Of a DNA stretch of 37,275 nucleotides, positions 64 to 10,114 are shown in pieces; within the stretch, counting starts at the first letter, position 1, and the number at the start of each line of letters is the position of its first letter. The notes beneath the pieces are model-generated. The model was not told the origin of the DNA, searched no databases, and saw nothing but the letters and a program-made list of their open reading frames with translations. The stretch comes from a virus: positions 1 through 37,275 of IMG/VR virus record IMGVR_UViG_3300035698_002169. The stretch is one strand, 5' to 3'. The position numbers and the translations under genes were made by a program.

Positions 64-537
64 ATGAGTATAAAGAATCCAAAAAATACAGGCATAAAAA
101 AACCAACAGCATTGAAGCTCCTCGAGGGCAACCCTGGTAAAAGACCTATTAAAAATAATGAAGTTAAACCAAACCCGGCAATGCCAAAAATACCAGAATG
201 GCTAGAGGATGACGCAAAAGAAGAATGGGAAAGGATAGCTCCAAGACTTTATAATTTAGGATTGCTAACGGCCATAGATGATATGACACTTGCCGGATAT
301 TGCCAGGCATATGCAAGGTGGAAAGCAGCAGAAGAAGTTGTGACAAAAAAAGGAATGACATATACAACAGCATCTGGATATACTCAACAGCTTCCAGAAG
401 CAACATTGGCGCTTAAATATATGGGTGCAATGCGTGGGTTTATGGCAAAGTTTGGGATGTCTCCATCAGACAGAGTTGGATTAACTGTTAACGAGGAAGA
501 AGAAAAAGACGAAACTAGCAAGTATTTGAGTAGCTAA
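64..537 (+). CDS. terS: Terminase small subunit, P27 family
   Basis: A 157-residue protein that should recognise phage DNA and hand it to the large terminase at the start of packaging. The N-terminal motif LKLLEGNPGKRP (residues 18-29) is the hallmark of P27-family small terminases, and the length fits the family. The middle (about 45-105) is helical and the C-terminus ends in an acidic NEEEEKDE stretch. The ATG follows a GAGAGGAGAA ribosome binding site. The large terminase starts one base after the stop, the usual pairing. The 63 bases upstream hold only this leader and the end of something unidentified. Confidence 0.93.
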   Translation: MSIKNPKNTGIKKPTALKLLEGNPGKRPIKNNEVKPNPAMPKIPEWLEDDAKEEWERIAPRLYNLGLLTAIDDMTLAGYCQAYARWKAAEEVVTKKGMTYTTASGYTQQLPEATLALKYMGAMRGFMAKFGMSPSDRVGLTVNEEEEKDETSKYLSS

Positions 538-3221: not shown

Positions 3222-4457
3222 ATGAGCTTATTCAATAGAAAAAAAGGTGAAAGAAGTAGTGTATCAAATCCAACAGCATGGCTTATTGATATATTTGGTG
3301 CAGGAACTAAAAGCAAATCCGGCATCAAAGTTACAGAGGCAAAAGCACTTGGAATTTCTACAGTTTTCGCTTGTGTAAATATAATAACCGGAGCAATGGC
3401 AACATTAAGAGTTAATTTTTATGAAAGATTAGCCGAAGGAAAAGGAAAAAAGAAAGCAACCGATCATATTTTATATGGATTGCTTCACGACTTACCGAAT
3501 CCAGACACAACCGCTTTTGATTTTTGGGTTATGTATATCGTAAATCTTTTATTAACCGGTGATGCCTTTGCAATTGTTAAGCGAAACGGAAATGGTGAAA
3601 TTATATCTTTATGGAATATTCCGTCAGGTAAAGTAACTATAAAACAAAACCCAGATACTAATGAAACATATTATACTATTAAAAATGAAAAAGGCGAGGA
3701 TGCTTCATACTACGGAGAAAATATGATGCACACCAGAGGATTAAGGTTCTCATCCACAAAAAAATCAGTTAATCCTGTATCAATGGCAAGAGAAGCAATG
3801 GGATTATCAATGGCATTAGAAGAATATGGTGGTAAATTTTTCGCTAATGGCGCAAATTCCGGTGGGATTGTAAAGGTTGCCGGCAAAATGTCAGATGGAG
3901 CCTTCCAGAGATTCGCTAAAAGTTTCAAAGAAAAGTATGATGGCATAGGAAATTCAGCGAAAGTAATGTTTTTAGAAGAAGGAACAGACTTTGTAAAGCT
4001 CGGAACTGATCCAGATAAAGCACAATCACTTGAATCTAGGAAATTTCAGATAGCTGAGATTGCAAGATTCTTTTATAACGTACCACTTCATAAAATATTA
4101 GAATTAGATAGAGCAACATTTAACAATATAGAGCAGATGAATATTGCATTTGTCCAAGATTGCTTAAATCCAATATCAGTTAGAATTGAACAATCAATTT
4201 ATAAAACGCTACTGACAAAAAATGAACGTACAAAATATTTCGCAAAGTTTAACACAAATGCTTTACTTCGTGGAGATCTTGCGGCTAGAAAAGAATATTA
4301 CGGAACCATGATTCAAAATGGTGTTTTCTCACCAAATGATGTACTAGATTTAGAAGATATGAATCCATATGAAGGCGGAGATGTACACGTATTTAATGCG
4401 GCAGTTGTCCCCGTTGATAAAATATATGAAAATAAACCAGCGAAGGGTGGTGAATAG
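3222..4457 (+). CDS. Portal protein, HK97 family
   Basis: 411 residues, the normal size for an HK97-type portal, which forms the dodecameric ring at the capsid vertex for DNA passage and connector docking. Typical family segments are GISTVFACVNIITGAMA near residue 45, LLTGDAFAIVKR near 108, and RKFQIAEIARFFYNVPLHKI near 275. The start is preceded by ATAGGAGAAAAGC. It sits between the large terminase and the prohead protease, the standard order. The C-terminal tail (EGGDVHVFNAAVVPVDKI) is also usual for the family. No irregularity seen. Confidence 0.94.
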   Translation: MSLFNRKKGERSSVSNPTAWLIDIFGAGTKSKSGIKVTEAKALGISTVFACVNIITGAMATLRVNFYERLAEGKGKKKATDHILYGLLHDLPNPDTTAFDFWVMYIVNLLLTGDAFAIVKRNGNGEIISLWNIPSGKVTIKQNPDTNETYYTIKNEKGEDASYYGENMMHTRGLRFSSTKKSVNPVSMAREAMGLSMALEEYGGKFFANGANSGGIVKVAGKMSDGAFQRFAKSFKEKYDGIGNSAKVMFLEEGTDFVKLGTDPDKAQSLESRKFQIAEIARFFYNVPLHKILELDRATFNNIEQMNIAFVQDCLNPISVRIEQSIYKTLLTKNERTKYFAKFNTNALLRGDLAARKEYYGTMIQNGVFSPNDVLDLEDMNPYEGGDVHVFNAAVVPVDKIYENKPAKGGE

Positions 4458-5150: not shown

Positions 5151-6347
5151 ATGAAGAGTGAAAAGCTATTACAGCTAAAACAAGAAAGAGCGCAAGCAAC
5201 ATCTGATATTAGATCATTAATGGATCAATTCACAGATGTCGAACTTCCGGCTGAAAAAAAGGAAGAACTCGAAAACATGGAAAAGAGTTTTGATACACTA
5301 AATGGAAACATTATGGTGGAAGAAAAACAGCTCAACAGAGAAAGACTCGCTGGGGAAAAAGTAGCGGAAAAAGAAGAAGAAATCAAAGATGCCGGTGTCG
5401 AAGTTCGTGAAGCATGGGAAGGTTATCTGAGAAATTGCGATTCTGATTCTATTACTAAGTACAGAGCGCTTCAGCAAGACAATCCAACACAGGCAGGTTA
5501 TCTCGTAGCACCTGAAAAATTTGTTGGGGAAGTCATTGAGACTTTAGATGATTTATTGTTTATGAGACAGTTATCTAAAAAGTTCACACTTGACAAAGCA
5601 CAGTCACTTGGTTTTCCAAAACGTACAGCAAGAATGGATACATTTGCATGGGGTACTGAAATTTCAGCTCCAACAGTAGATTCAACACTTGCATTCGGAA
5701 AACGTGAGTTCGCACCAAAACCAGGCACAGGCGGAATACTTGTATCAAAAACATTGCTCAGAAACTCAGCAGTGAATGTTGACCAGTATATTCGTAAAGA
5801 ACTTGCTTATGATTTTGGTACAGGATTTGAAGAAGCATACATGAATGGTACAGGAGCAGGACAGCCTCTTGGAGTATTCGTAGCATCGGATGACGGAATC
5901 AGCACAAGCCAAGATGTATCAACAGGAAACACAGCAACAGAGATGAAATTTGATGGATTGATTGAAGCTAAGTATTCTCTCGAACAGCAGTATCAAAAGA
6001 ATCTCAATTGGATATTCCACAGAGACGGAATTAAACAGATTGTTAAACTAAAAGACTCAGATGGTCAGTACATATGGCAGCCATCAGTAGTTCTTGGACA
6101 GCCGGATATGCTATTAAGTATTCCAGTTCAGATGTCAGAATATGCACCAAGCACATTTACCACAGGTTTATATGTTGGATTGCTAGGAGATTTCTCAAAC
6201 TACTGGATAGTTGATTCATTGAAGATGGAAGTACAGGCACTTATGGAATTATATGCGCTTACAAACCAGGTTTATTACATCGCTAGAATGGAAACCGATG
6301 GAATGCCTGTTTTAGAAGAAGCATTTGCAAGAGTTACATTAGGCTAA
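5151..6347 (+). CDS. Major capsid protein, HK97 fold
   Basis: 398 residues. The N-terminal 75 or so residues are a charged coiled coil (QLKQERAQATSDIRSLMDQF and on), the scaffold-like delta domain that the upstream protease is expected to remove. The mature fold begins near residue 105 with LQQDNPTQAGYLVAPEKF, typical of HK97 coat proteins, and continues through VSKTLLRNSAVNVDQYI and an E-loop/P-domain-like region to the end. A strong AGGAAGGAGATC ribosome binding site fits high expression. A 7-bp inverted repeat overlaps its stop codon. I did not try to pin the cleavage site. Confidence 0.95.
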   Translation: MKSEKLLQLKQERAQATSDIRSLMDQFTDVELPAEKKEELENMEKSFDTLNGNIMVEEKQLNRERLAGEKVAEKEEEIKDAGVEVREAWEGYLRNCDSDSITKYRALQQDNPTQAGYLVAPEKFVGEVIETLDDLLFMRQLSKKFTLDKAQSLGFPKRTARMDTFAWGTEISAPTVDSTLAFGKREFAPKPGTGGILVSKTLLRNSAVNVDQYIRKELAYDFGTGFEEAYMNGTGAGQPLGVFVASDDGISTSQDVSTGNTATEMKFDGLIEAKYSLEQQYQKNLNWIFHRDGIKQIVKLKDSDGQYIWQPSVVLGQPDMLLSIPVQMSEYAPSTFTTGLYVGLLGDFSNYWIVDSLKMEVQALMELYALTNQVYYIARMETDGMPVLEEAFARVTLG

Positions 6348-6380: not shown

Positions 6381-6812
6381 ATGAAAAGTTTATTACAGGA
6401 TTGTAAGATACTAAAAATCGAGGATAGCACAGGATCCGCAACACAGGCAACTATTTCAGATGTTGTTGATATGAAAGGCTATGGTGGAGTTTGTTTCATC
6501 TATAAATTGGGCGTTGTTACAGATGCCGCAGTTGCAACATTAACAGTTGCGCAGGGAACAACCACATCACCAACCGACGTCTTATCTGGGGCATCAGCAA
6601 CATTGACTGGTTCAAGTGATAGCGAACAGAGTTTGGTTATTGATATTGTAAAACCAAGGGAGCGCTATGTAAGAGCAACAATGACAATTATCACACAAGC
6701 AGCAGGTATTGATTCAGGATTTGCTATTCTCTACAACCCAATTGCAAAGCCGGTTTCACAGCCGACAACAATTGATGCTTCAACGCAGGTCGTAAGTCCT
6801 GCTGAAAGTTAG
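6381..6812 (+). CDS. Probable head decoration protein
   Basis: 143 residues, strong binding site TTAGGAGG. Rich in Ala, Thr, Ser and Val with alternating beta-strand patterns (VCFIYKLGVVTDAAVATLTVAQG, then SLVIDIVKPRERYVRATMTI), which suggests a small beta-sandwich. Its position right after the capsid gene and its composition fit a capsid surface or stabilising protein. The segment 'large hydrophobic strand - RYVRA - alternating strands - IAILYN-like end' closely resembles the extra domain inside the connector at 7750-8670 (RYIRA ... SIMLYA). The decoration role is inferred from place and fold impression only. Confidence 0.6.
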   Translation: MKSLLQDCKILKIEDSTGSATQATISDVVDMKGYGGVCFIYKLGVVTDAAVATLTVAQGTTTSPTDVLSGASATLTGSSDSEQSLVIDIVKPRERYVRATMTIITQAAGIDSGFAILYNPIAKPVSQPTTIDASTQVVSPAES

Positions 6813-6823
6813 GAGGAGAAAAA

Positions 6824-7738
6824 ATGACAGTTCAGAATGGATATAATACAACTCCTAATTCCAAATATTTTGAGGACATAGCGGCAGCTAATGACTCAGT
6901 TCATAGCACCTATTATGTTGCAGGAGACGCAGGGAACGATTCAAATGATGGGAAGAGTTGGGACAACGCTATGAAAACGTTGGCGGTTGCGATGGCAGCA
7001 AGTCACGCGGACATAGATGCTGACACAACTGGAGGAGATGCAAGAAATAGGATTTATTTTAAATCGGATGGCAGTGTAGAAACTCTGACAAAGTTCGCAC
7101 AGCAAACAGATATATATGGTGTGGGTTCAACAGGCTTAAAAGCTAAGTCAGCCTTATACGGAAATCATGTTGTGCCAGGTACCACATCTTACGCCGGATG
7201 CAGGTTCTACAACATTTTATTTAGAGGACCAGCTGTAACCGGTGGCGATATTTTCACAGTAACTCAGCAAGGAATGGAATTTCATGAATGTGAATTTTTA
7301 GCCACAGGTAGTTCAACAGATGCAACAGCCGCAATTATTTCAACAGCAGGCGCTAGTCTTTTAGTCGAAAATTGTGTATTCAAAGGTGAATATGGCGATG
7401 CAGTTATTGAGATAGGCGCAGGCGTAGCGAATGATCTTGTTATCAAAAACAATCTAATTCAAGGCGCAAATATGGGAATTGATATCAGTGCCTCAGCTAC
7501 TTTTGCTGCAGGTAAGTATGGAGTAATTCAAGGCAATGTATTTAGTACAACTTTGGCTTGTGTTAATGATGCAGAATCAAAATGCTATGTTATAGGGAAC
7601 AGGGGAATTACAGCGGCAGCTTCAGGCGTAGCACTTGCAGGCGCAGTTGTATGTAATATTGCACTTGCACAGGATAACCGATTCACAACAAGCAGCGATA
7701 ATAACATTGAATACCCAGCACTAGGAGCTGTAACTTAA
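6824..7738 (+). CDS. Parallel beta-helix protein in the head gene block
   Basis: 304 residues, binding site TTAGGAGGAG. The segment YYVAGDAGNDSNDGKSWDNA (about 31-50) is the typical opening of secreted and viral right-handed parallel beta-helix proteins (pectate-lyase-like, DUF1565-like). After it come rungs rich in N, V, I and G, such as LLVENCVFKG, LVIKNNLIQG and GVIQGNVFST. There is no signal peptide. Beta-helices are usual in tail spikes, but this gene lies between the decoration-like and connector genes. It may therefore be a head fibre or capsid-bound glycan-binding protein. Enzymatic activity cannot be judged from the sequence. Confidence 0.7.
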   Translation: MTVQNGYNTTPNSKYFEDIAAANDSVHSTYYVAGDAGNDSNDGKSWDNAMKTLAVAMAASHADIDADTTGGDARNRIYFKSDGSVETLTKFAQQTDIYGVGSTGLKAKSALYGNHVVPGTTSYAGCRFYNILFRGPAVTGGDIFTVTQQGMEFHECEFLATGSSTDATAAIISTAGASLLVENCVFKGEYGDAVIEIGAGVANDLVIKNNLIQGANMGIDISASATFAAGKYGVIQGNVFSTTLACVNDAESKCYVIGNRGITAAASGVALAGAVVCNIALAQDNRFTTSSDNNIEYPALGAVT

Positions 7739-7749
7739 AGGAGTAACTA

Positions 7750-8670
7750 ATGCTTAAGAAACTAACCACAGCGATAACAACGGAACCTGTAACACTTGCA
7801 GAGGCTCTTGCACAAATCAGGCAAAGCACAAATGACCTAGCTGATAGTGTAACAAATGAGCAATCTATTGCACCAGGTTCACATATTGCCGGCTCAACAA
7901 ACGGAGCATCCTCGGATGCGTTCGGATATTCTCCTATTGTATTTCTGGAAGCAGGAACAAATGGAGCGAGCGGAGCGGTAGATGTAATAATTGAGGAATC
8001 AGATGATGATATAACATTTACTACTTGGAGCAGTTTCACGCAAGTTACAGAAGCAAACGACAATCAAACATTTGAAAAAGCATACACAGGTTCTCAAAGA
8101 TATATAAGAGCAGCCGCCACGACAGCAACAGCGGCTTGCTCGTTTGCAGTTAGTATAATGCTATATGCAATAACATCTGACGAGAGCGATTTGATCACTA
8201 CACTAATAACAATAGCAAGAGAGTATGGCGAGGATTACACTGGGCAAGCATTCGCACCGCAAACGTGGGTGCAATACTATAATGATTTTCCTTCTGAGGA
8301 TTACTTAGAATGGAAGAGAGCGCCATTAACAAGCGTTTCTAGTGTAACTTATACCGACAGTGATAATACCGAAACCTCTATGGTAGCAGATACGGATTAT
8401 GTTGTGGACATTGACACCTTCCCAGGCAAGATTTACTTGCCATATAATGGAAGTTGGGCATCATTCACTCCCAAACCGTACAATGCGGTCGCTTTCACTG
8501 GCGTTTGTGGTTACACAGGTGTAGCGCCATATATACTCCCTTATAACTTTAAACAGGCTATGTTACTTCACATCGGTTTAATGTACCGATATAGAGATGA
8601 AGAAGTCCCAGAAAGTGCCATGAAAACGATTTATCGGTTGTATTGGCTCAGGGGCGGAAGGCAAGTATGA
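7750..8670 (+). CDS. Head-tail connector (phiE125 gp8 / HK97 gp6-like) with an inserted decoration-like domain
   Basis: 306 residues; family members are usually about 190. The connector begins with TEPVTLAEALAQIRQ (11-25), breaks off, and resumes with ITSDESDLITTLITIAREYG (141-160) and EDYTGQAFAPQTW, which in relatives follow each other directly. Residues about 26-140 are an extra beta-rich domain (SPIVFLEAGTNGASGAVDVI ... RYIRAAATT ... SIMLYA) resembling the upstream decoration-like protein. The C-terminal half shows the family's beta-strands and final helices (FKQAMLLHIGLMYRYRDE). The protein should attach to the portal and form the first connector ring. Binding site AAAGGAG. Confidence 0.85.
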   Translation: MLKKLTTAITTEPVTLAEALAQIRQSTNDLADSVTNEQSIAPGSHIAGSTNGASSDAFGYSPIVFLEAGTNGASGAVDVIIEESDDDITFTTWSSFTQVTEANDNQTFEKAYTGSQRYIRAAATTATAACSFAVSIMLYAITSDESDLITTLITIAREYGEDYTGQAFAPQTWVQYYNDFPSEDYLEWKRAPLTSVSSVTYTDSDNTETSMVADTDYVVDIDTFPGKIYLPYNGSWASFTPKPYNAVAFTGVCGYTGVAPYILPYNFKQAMLLHIGLMYRYRDEEVPESAMKTIYRLYWLRGGRQV

Positions 8671-8996
8671 TTAATTTTAATGCCGGAGATTTGAATATAA
8701 AAATAACATTACAAGCGCAAAGCGGAGGGCAAGACAGTTACGGACAAGTTACCCCAGAAACATGGAGTGATATTGCTACACCATTTGCGCAGATGTTACA
8801 AAAGACTTCAAGGGAATTTTACGTATCGCAAAAAGTATATGAAGAAGTTACCGCAGTTTTTAAAATTCATTTTATGAATGGCATTAGTGTATTGCACAGG
8901 ATAAAGTATGGTAGCAGGTATTTCAATATTTTGGGAATAGATAACCCGGAACAAAGAAACATAGCACTTTTAATTATAGCGAAGGAGGTTATATAA
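8667..8996 (+). CDS. Head closure protein (phage head-tail adaptor family)
   Basis: 109 residues from the ATG at 8667, which overlaps the connector's TGA as ATGA and follows GGCGGAAGG; an in-frame ATG at 8643 lies inside the connector gene and has no good binding site. The sequence has the layout of the SPP1 gp16/HK97 adaptor family: GDLNIKITLQAQ at the N-terminus, YGQVTPETWSDIATPFAQ, then a Tyr-containing YGSRYFNILGIDNPEQRN and a final hydrophobic strand. It should plug the connector after packaging. Position between connector and tail terminator fits. Confidence 0.88.
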   Translation: MINFNAGDLNIKITLQAQSGGQDSYGQVTPETWSDIATPFAQMLQKTSREFYVSQKVYEEVTAVFKIHFMNGISVLHRIKYGSRYFNILGIDNPEQRNIALLIIAKEVI

Positions 8997-9403
8997 TGGC
9001 TGAAATTGAAGAAGCTTTAGTTGCTTATTTAAAACTACAATCAGGATTGACTTCTTTAGTTAATAACAAAATATACCCGGAAGAAATACCCCAAAAAAAT
9101 GATTTACCAGCTATTGCATATATAAAAATTAGCGATATTAAGAGACATATGCTTACCGAACAGAATCCATTGGAAGAGCCATTTATTCAGTTCACAGTAT
9201 ATGCAGACACAAAGTCATCAGCGAGAGCTGTATTGGCACAAATTAAAACAGCTTTGAAGGATTATGTCGGAACTTTATCCGGCGTAGTAATTCAAAAAAT
9301 ACAAATGGAGAATGAAATCTCCAACATGGAAACTGGATCAGATGGTATAAAAAAAATCTATACCGAAGATGCTGAGTTTCAAATATTCTATGAAAGGAGT
9401 TAA
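8996..9403 (+). CDS. Tail terminator / tail completion protein, DUF3168 family
   Basis: 135 residues. Pattern matches DUF3168: an N-terminal helix EEALVAYLKLQSGLTSLV, then IYPEEIPQKNDLPAIAYIKI, FTVYADTKSSARAVLAQI and a C-terminal strand EDAEFQIFYERS. Members of this family cap the tail tube and dock it to the head. The ATG shares one base with the preceding TAA (TAATG) and is preceded by GCGAAGGAGG. It lies directly before the tail tube gene, the standard order. Confidence 0.87.
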   Translation: MAEIEEALVAYLKLQSGLTSLVNNKIYPEEIPQKNDLPAIAYIKISDIKRHMLTEQNPLEEPFIQFTVYADTKSSARAVLAQIKTALKDYVGTLSGVVIQKIQMENEISNMETGSDGIKKIYTEDAEFQIFYERS

Positions 9404-9406
9404 GTT

Positions 9407-10114
9407 ATGAAATTAGGTTTTGGAACAACTTTAACTTGGAATGCACAGGCAGTTGCGGAGCTTACTCAGATTAATGGTATAGAAATAACAACGGATTCCG
9501 TTGACACTACTTCTCATGATTCTAGTGATACTTATAAAGAATCAATACCTGGGTTAATAGATGCCGGCGAGGTATCTCTTGAAGGCGGATTTGATTATAC
9601 AGATACATCAGGACAGCACGCAATGTTGACCGATATGAATGCACAGACATCACGATCAGTTGTAATAACATTTCCAACAGCAACCGGAGCGACTTGGTCA
9701 TTTACTGGTTATGTTACTAGATTGAAAATCGGCGATTTCCCAATTGATAATGTAATAGCATTTTCGGCATCAATTAAGGTCGTAGGCAAACCAACATTCG
9801 CAGTAGCGACATCAACAGGATTGACAACACCATTCTTCTCACTCGATTCATCTGCGACACTCGTACCAGCAGCAGCAAATGCAGTATATGATTATGTTGT
9901 AACAGTTCTGACAGCAGAAGATGACATAATAATCACACCAACAGCAGCAGCAGGCGTTATCACTGTAGATGGCAACACAGTAACATCTGGAGCACCATCA
10001 AGCGCAGTTGCACTCGGAGCAGTGGACACAGTAACCTCAATTGATATAGTGGTTACAGAAACAAGCAAAGCACCAGTTACTTATACACTTGAAGTAGCAA
10101 GAGCATCTAGCTAA
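9407..10114 (+). CDS. Major tail tube protein with a C-terminal cadherin-like/Ig-like domain
   Basis: 235 residues. Residues 1-130 show the tail tube pattern (MKLGFGTTLTW, GIEITTDSVDTTSHDSSDTY, GEVSLEGGFDY, WSFTGYVTRLKIGDFPIDN). Residues about 148-233 are an added beta-sandwich resembling the 'cadherin-like beta sandwich' domain: YDYVVTVLTAEDDIIITPTA ... ITVDGNTVTSGAPSSAVALG ... TYTLEVARA. Such Ig-like additions decorate the tail outside and may hold on to cell-surface glycans. The binding site GAAAGGAG and the following hairpin fit an abundant structural protein. The domain border is approximate. Confidence 0.92.
   Translation: MKLGFGTTLTWNAQAVAELTQINGIEITTDSVDTTSHDSSDTYKESIPGLIDAGEVSLEGGFDYTDTSGQHAMLTDMNAQTSRSVVITFPTATGATWSFTGYVTRLKIGDFPIDNVIAFSASIKVVGKPTFAVATSTGLTTPFFSLDSSATLVPAAANAVYDYVVTVLTAEDDIIITPTAAAGVITVDGNTVTSGAPSSAVALGAVDTVTSIDIVVTETSKAPVTYTLEVARASS

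Follow-up and report, generated by a model that had tools for sequence, protein, structure and literature searches.

The gene at positions 7750-8670 of the viral DNA analyzed here (an IMG/VR virus record of 37,275 bases, all of it referred to below as the window) encodes a head-tail adaptor of the RcGTA/HK97-gp6 type, from a long-tailed phage, in which a complete jelly-roll domain of the capsid-cement type is, with very little room for doubt, nested in the loop between the first and second adaptor helices. Capsid cement and the neck adaptor are normally separate parts and pose separate symmetry problems; solved relatives of the adaptor form a dodecameric ring. Adaptors with accessory domains are known; what this one carries, in its first inter-helix loop, is a capsid cement module. 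The best overall explanation, which we hold with about even confidence, is a cement-bearing adaptor in which 12 tethered domains would brace the head-neck junction.

Late genes in the window follow the standard order, from the terminases through portal, protease, and capsid to the head, neck, and tail genes (Table 1). The adaptor gene lies between the capsid and stopper genes, as expected of its type, and the order portal-capsid-(cement)-adaptor-stopper was found repeatedly among the loci of relatives. Three neighboring products have features of their own. The ATPase domain of the large terminase is split by an insert that resembles an intein and contains a LAGLIDADG endonuclease domain (LAGLIDADG_3, residues 302-352); the 304 amino acid protein encoded just before the adaptor has a weak pectate-lyase-like (beta-helix) match (E 0.0021) and is possibly a head or neck fiber; and the tail tube protein (9407-10114) ends in a cadherin-like beta-sandwich (PF12733, residues 158-232, E 8.4e-5).

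Table 1. Late genes of the window and the parts of the adaptor gene.
Feature	Position	Strand	Basis
Small terminase	64-537		Position only
Large terminase ORF, 889 aa	539-3208		
Portal protein	3222-4457	+	PF04860, E 1.9e-96
Protease	Between portal and major capsid genes in the listed order		
Major capsid protein	5151-6347	+	PF05065, E 5.5e-55
Stand-alone cement/decoration-type protein, 143 aa, directly 3' of the major capsid gene	6381-6812	+	Family profile against Carin1 decoration protein and BPP-1 cement
304-aa protein, between cement-type gene and adaptor	6824-7738		
Head-tail adaptor, gp6/RcGTA type, 306 aa, bearing the nested cement-type domain	7750-8670	+	Open frame; phrog_442; RcGTA fold match
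Adaptor N-terminal part: strand 1 (residues 2-7), first helix (residues 16-22), end at R24	7750-7821	+	AlphaFold2 secondary structure; alignment to insert-less adaptors
Inserted jelly-roll domain, residues ~25-141 (30-140 in the model)	7822-8172	+	phrog_5707; BPP-1 cement profile and fold matches; site and length conserved in relatives
Second (long) adaptor helix, residues 144-164, where the adaptor fold resumes	8179-8241	+	AlphaFold2 model; conserved I153, R157, E161 in profile A4
Adaptor beta-rich region, residues 169-256, counterpart of the RcGTA attachment domain	8254-8517	+	6tba_2A alignment; inferred boundaries; name as in PMC7296036
Adaptor C-terminal helices, residues 265-302	8542-8655	+	AlphaFold2 model; HK97 gp6 match
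Head closure (stopper) protein Hc1	8643-8996	+	PF05521, E 6e-17; phrog_25, E 2.7e-22
Tail terminator and tail tube genes	After Hc1 in the listed order		

The adaptor sequence is broken after ...PVTLAEALAQIR (R24) and continues at TSDESDLITTLI, just where the sequence-only reading had placed the break and the resumption, and the match to phrog_442 (head-tail adaptor) begins only at residue 140 (residues 140-283, E 8.1e-15). The same family matches 65/65 fused relatives. Pfam Phage_connect_1 was found in 59/65 of them at E ≤ 0.05; on the window protein alone it scores 12.6 bits, below its gathering score of 21.2, and at E ≤ 0.05 the window protein itself matched neither Phage_connect_1 nor Bbp16 in Pfam. 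Against PDB sequences, a profile of the 65 relatives (A4) matched the RcGTA adaptor Rcc01688 (6tba_2A) with E 1.8e-13 over profile columns 149-311. In that alignment, RcGTA residues 2-28 fall before the insert, with negligible score, and residues 34-190 fall after it with the E-value given; the insert thus occupies the site of an RcGTA loop of about five residues. A4 also matched HK97 gp6 (E 0.033) in the C-terminal helix part of the adaptor. The AlphaFold2 model of the 306 amino acid protein (pLDDT 91.3, pTM 0.67) was aligned to the RcGTA adaptor by VIA-align, with model residues 1-305 on chain residues 1-191 (Z 15.8, 3.6 Å, 187 residues), and the separate nested domain that had been proposed is present in it as a distinct jelly-roll between the adaptor helices at residues 16-22 and 144-164.

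By sequence profile and fold, the insert is a Bbp16-like capsid-cement domain; its binding to the capsid is putative. The stand-alone family phrog_5707 (134 amino acids, listed without function) covers residues 28-139 of the window protein (E 2.6e-9) and matches 64/65 fused proteins, Pfam Bbp16 (PF21190) was found in 20/65 relatives at E ≤ 0.05, and the insert part of A4 (profile columns 70-147) matched the BPP-1 capsid cement protein (3j4u_H) with E 9.6e-4. Residues 33-139 of the model have the jelly-roll fold and align to BPP-1 cement over 106 residues (Z 10.4, 3.0 Å); other VIA-align matches of the insert were to XepA (Z 11.4), a 135-residue chain of the Agrobacterium phage 7-7-1 capsid (9.6), the Carin1 decoration protein (8.8), and KHP40 cement (8.0). 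Jelly-rolls of many kinds reach Z 8-9, and a match of fold is thus weak when taken alone; the assignment rests on the sequence-profile matches. Ig/FN3 families (Big2, I-set, FN3) were absent from the 12 Pfam families matched by the 65 relatives at E ≤ 0.05. With this assignment, phrog_5707 gains a likely role.

The insert and the product of the neighboring cement-type gene (6381-6812) belong to one cement superfamily, within which they are distantly related. Their likeness had been noticed from RYVRA and RYIRA motifs and a common strand order; the motif match taken singly is weak evidence, but the kinship holds on other grounds. Profile-profile comparison of inserts with stand-alone proteins gave probabilities of 98.7-99.1% (98.7% with 15 stand-alone relatives, 82% with the P0002 subtype alone), against at most 3.3% in 40 comparisons with column-shuffled insert controls. 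Both models open with a short helix, followed by the same succession of eight to nine strands, and residues 34-142 of XepA (the PBSX exported protein) align to the insert (Z 11.4) and to the 6381 model (Z 11.1), which is a likeness of fold only. A family profile of the 15 stand-alone relatives (A5) matched, among PDB sequences, the Carin1 decoration protein (8cjz_B, E 3.7e-4) and BPP-1 cement (3j4u_H, E 3.1e-3). The 6381-6812 product alone matched no Pfam family, and cement chains were absent among the 50 VIA-align rows listed for its model (pLDDT 82.8).

The inserts made up one side of a branch (SH-aLRT 81) in a tree that joined 71 of them to 107 stand-alone domains. The stand-alone set came from 126 hits, 80 of 404 relatives being kept from the stand-alone scan; these gave 115 distinct sequences and, with five of the P0002 type added and near-copies dropped, the final 107. 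When a stand-alone domain found later (L317, from a genome in the phylum of the Syntrophaceae MAG) was included, in a set with five long-branch stand-alones removed and two added, the 71 inserts and L317 were grouped at 99, with L317 placed inside the group at weak support. This tree and the adaptor-body tree described below come from quick searches on few columns. Both domain trees place the window insert among the inserts of other adaptors, and the 6381 product among the stand-alones. The suggestion that the insert was perhaps copied from the decoration gene is therefore not borne out: the grouping gives no support to a recent copy of this phage's own 6381 gene, and supports one older origin of the inserted domain.

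The fused adaptor is widespread in viral contigs of uncultured phages. Single-sequence scans, whether of viral or of genome contigs, with the adaptor or the capsid protein of the window gave zero relatives, and GenBank phages had no tblastn match to either the window insert or the 6381 product. A DNA scan for the motif YTGxxRYIRA found 15 viral contigs, of which 10 encode an adaptor with an identically placed insert, 4 a stand-alone protein, and 1 something unrelated. Connectors with the same insertion were found in quantity by a profile scan of viral contigs: there were 187 relatives, and the best 80 of the 187, which were kept, all carry the insert at the same site (80/80; L080 is without the gene start and L081 without the gene end). 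The corresponding scan of bacterial genome contigs gave five relatives, two of them fused (a Spirochaetes MAG and a Syntrophaceae MAG). Together, the motif and profile sets (best 80 of 187 kept) comprise 92 loci and 75 distinct proteins including that of the window, with an insertion site common to all; identity of the relatives to the window protein is 32-46%. The insert is 115-123 amino acids long in 73 of the 75, 197 in L101, and 255 in L009. A common site in 75 distinct proteins, with near-constant length in 73, is not a product of chance, and one open frame together with many independent contigs rules out an assembly or frame artefact as the source of the insert.

A scan with the adaptor-body motif RA-x-ITQTW gave at least 120 contigs, in which 117/121 motif ORFs were adaptors by profile; the sample is not random. 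Among the matches listed, 4/117 adaptors carry the cement insert, another 4/117 (three distinct) carry an unrelated domain of ~115 residues at the same site, and 109/117 have neither. The sequence-only reading, which had described relatives as continuous, is thus right for most listed adaptors, although a large family has the same insert; the architecture it called uncommon is so, at 4/117 of those listed, but with 187 relatives in viral contigs it is not singular. Carriers of the unrelated domain are L193, L195 (the same as L289, identical up to the motif), and L277; the domain of L193 matches the phage virion families phrog_511 (E 1.2e-10) and phrog_17680. Searches by tblastn of GenBank phages with three fused proteins gave 97, 100, and 23 records, 0 of them with 80% cover, and with the window protein 1 record, without the insert. 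Three GenBank phages and a Planctopirus plasmid, with cover starting at about residue 122, were candidates for the insert in cultured phages, but were found to have insert-less adaptors of 561-588 nt. The phylum to which the Syntrophaceae MAG belongs was covered by 395 genomes, of which 5 gave a match; among the matches opened only that MAG has the fused form, with the second G019 match and L320 in its entirety represented by a reported frame of 213 amino acids. No cement-type domain inside an adaptor was described in titles and abstract openings of the papers that searches of the open full-text literature (PMC) listed, a scope that subscription journals mostly lie outside.

Empty sites show the junction directly, in L257, L238, and L191 compared with L209, and in L189 and L214 compared with L207. 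The bodies of L209 (with the insert) and L257 (without it) share 126/166 residues (76% identity); since adaptors this close do without the domain, it is dispensable. In a body tree with 70 of the 107 unfused adaptors, drawn at random, and the three with the other insert kept apart, insert-carrying adaptors are not one clade (15 changes, a count that is approximate because the bodies are short and the search quick; starred branches force 3; AU p 5.6e-6). Bodies that are not one clade, combined with a single lineage of inserts, point to loss or exchange of the insert between adaptors. In L317 a cement gene precedes an insert-less adaptor, in L316, L318, and L319 the cement and adaptor genes are adjacent, and in L172, L179, L180, and L182 a stand-alone cement gene lies immediately 5' of the fused adaptor. 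Such adjacency makes a local origin of the insert, from a neighboring cement gene, plausible. Direct repeats of at least 12 bases were not found around the insert.

In SPP1 gp15, helix alpha-0 lies at the periphery of the connector and bridges neighboring subunits, its mutation blocks channel closure, and the alpha0-alpha1 loop is among the places where gp15 homologues differ (PMC9701221). The insert directly follows the helix that we equate with SPP1 alpha-0, and it is thus probably displayed on the outer periphery of the adaptor ring, in line with the display around the neck that the sequence-only reading put forward. Contact with the capsid, in a zone surrounding the portal vertex, is made by RcGTA and R4C adaptors via an attachment domain (PMC7296036, PMC10276861), and BPP-1 cement ties capsid proteins in pairs at local twofold axes (PMC3863775). 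In the arrangement that we favor, 12 cement domains would ring the outer rim of the adaptor beside the portal vertex; so tethered, they could contact the capsid protein, its cement layer, or one another, and these contacts would brace the symmetry-mismatched head-neck junction. The phage retains a separate cement gene for the remainder of the shell. A bracing role of this sort is, in our judgment, evenly poised. A separate recognizable cement gene lies between the capsid and adaptor genes in 26/49 fused loci with the capsid gene on the contig, as compared with 31/71 unfused loci (unrecognized ones may be too diverged); its retention in 26/49 fused loci argues that the fused domain adds to the cement and is not a replacement for it.

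Mean pairwise identity is 0.559 for the insert versus 0.435 for the adaptor body; the loci were found via insert motifs, a bias partly corrected, and without the search-seed regions insert identity is 0.539 and above that of the body in 1761/2080 pairs. An insert more conserved than its body suggests a constrained partner and argues against a fast-evolving, host-facing adhesin. It is accordingly improbable that the jelly-roll binds sugars or cell surfaces and raises adsorption, in the manner of promiscuous Ig-like domains on virions, even with weak Pfam matches to F5/8 type C (12/65 relatives) and carbohydrate-binding modules, fold matches by VIA-align that include lectins and CBMs at slightly lower Z, and a different, unrelated domain occupying this site in 4/117 of the adaptors listed. 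The relatives of the insert by sequence are cement proteins whose genes lie next to that of the capsid, and a jelly-roll likeness is common and shows no function. The same conservation, a steady length (115-123 amino acids in 73/75), and persistence across many contigs make it still less probable that the insert is a neutral passenger of a domain-tolerant loop, added, removed, and exchanged by recombination and serving no fixed function; this is what the scattering of insert-bearing bodies over the tree (the 15 changes and AU test above), the different domain at the same site in other adaptors, and the near-identical bodies without any insert would otherwise suggest.

Contact of the domains with the capsid is putative. 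Over 33 loci, the partial correlation of insert with capsid given the body was 0.29 (p 0.003) and that of body with capsid given the insert 0.00, a difference lost with 42 loci (0.201, 0.197), and in the co-divergence with the capsid over 18 loci the body was higher than the insert; the favorable first result was not robust and carries no weight here. Loop 14-20 of the T5 adaptor faces the tail terminator and not the capsid (PMC11313276); it would correspond to the insertion site, and hence counts against capsid contact. A collar without such contact would have the domains touch each other and the stopper ring, either aiding the 12-to-6 symmetry step or keeping alpha-0 where it lies after assembly, a placement that channel closure requires in SPP1. 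It draws on the position of the insert directly after the helix equated with alpha-0, where mutation blocks closure in SPP1 (PMC9701221), on the T5 loop taken as equivalent, which mediates the 12/6 mismatch (PMC11313276), and on the dimerization of BPP-1 cement via F strands (PMC3863775), by which 12 inserts could make six pairs. We nonetheless consider a collar of this kind rather doubtful, as the stopper is tracked best by the body (partial correlation 0.42-0.53, compared with 0.21-0.30 for the insert), and insert-less relatives function without the domain. The bracing of head and neck by tethered cement may also be put in a broader form, possible though not one on which we would insist: shell cement of the phage's own type would have been made a neck part, its collar of 12 tethered domains (perhaps six strand-paired dimers) coupling a capsid of five-fold, an adaptor of twelve-fold, and a stopper of six-fold symmetry, and the adaptor loop that follows the first helix would be a general docking site for varied domains.

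Among known systems, the RcGTA adaptor Rcc01688 (PDB 6TBA, 6TOA) has the adaptor fold of model residues 1-305 minus the insert, but a short loop, at about residues 28-34, takes the place of the ~117-residue domain of the window protein. The R4C adaptor vBDshSR4C_004, as described in PMC10276861, is a dodecamer whose peripheral accessory beta-sandwich contacts the capsid, a likeness to the window protein as known from its sequence and model; in R4C, by description, the domain is Ig-like and sits at the N-terminus, and the capsid is presented there as having no decoration protein, whereas the window adaptor has a cement-type domain between helices plus an RcGTA-type beta region. BPP-1 cement Bbp16 (PDB 3J4U, PF21190) shares the jelly-roll (profile E 9.6e-4, VIA-align Z 10.4), but occurs as an unfused protein that covers the whole shell, and not as part of a neck adaptor. 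Gp7 of Streptomyces phage Chymera, a "capsid cementing protein" in the depositors' annotation and encoded right after the capsid gene, is, like phrog_5707, a stand-alone homologue that is not fused to an adaptor. Milano neck 1 (gp14), discussed with four structural classes in PMC10491603, joins a helical adaptor core to a beta-sandwich that connects to the five-fold capsid, but its sandwich is at residues 51-140, which we take as the attachment-domain position and not the first inter-helix loop, and the account of it in that paper makes no mention of a cement origin.

The fused adaptor and its close insert-less relatives constitute a natural experiment on the sealing of a symmetry-mismatched head-neck junction. 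One adaptor loop accepts whole foreign domains, of which two unrelated kinds were found, and a loop with this property would be useful for displaying proteins on laboratory phages at one vertex of the virion.

Fused relatives also differ among themselves. The L009 protein (7803-9161; identical in L012) has a further domain of ~135 residues inside its cement insert, near the NDN motif conserved in other inserts, with no significant Pfam or PHROG match to this extra domain. In nine others (L006, L042, L045, L052, L054, L055, L057, L062, and L072) the adaptor body exceeds that of the remaining fused relatives by ~50 residues, and the extra stretch in L006 is located in the beta-rich region.
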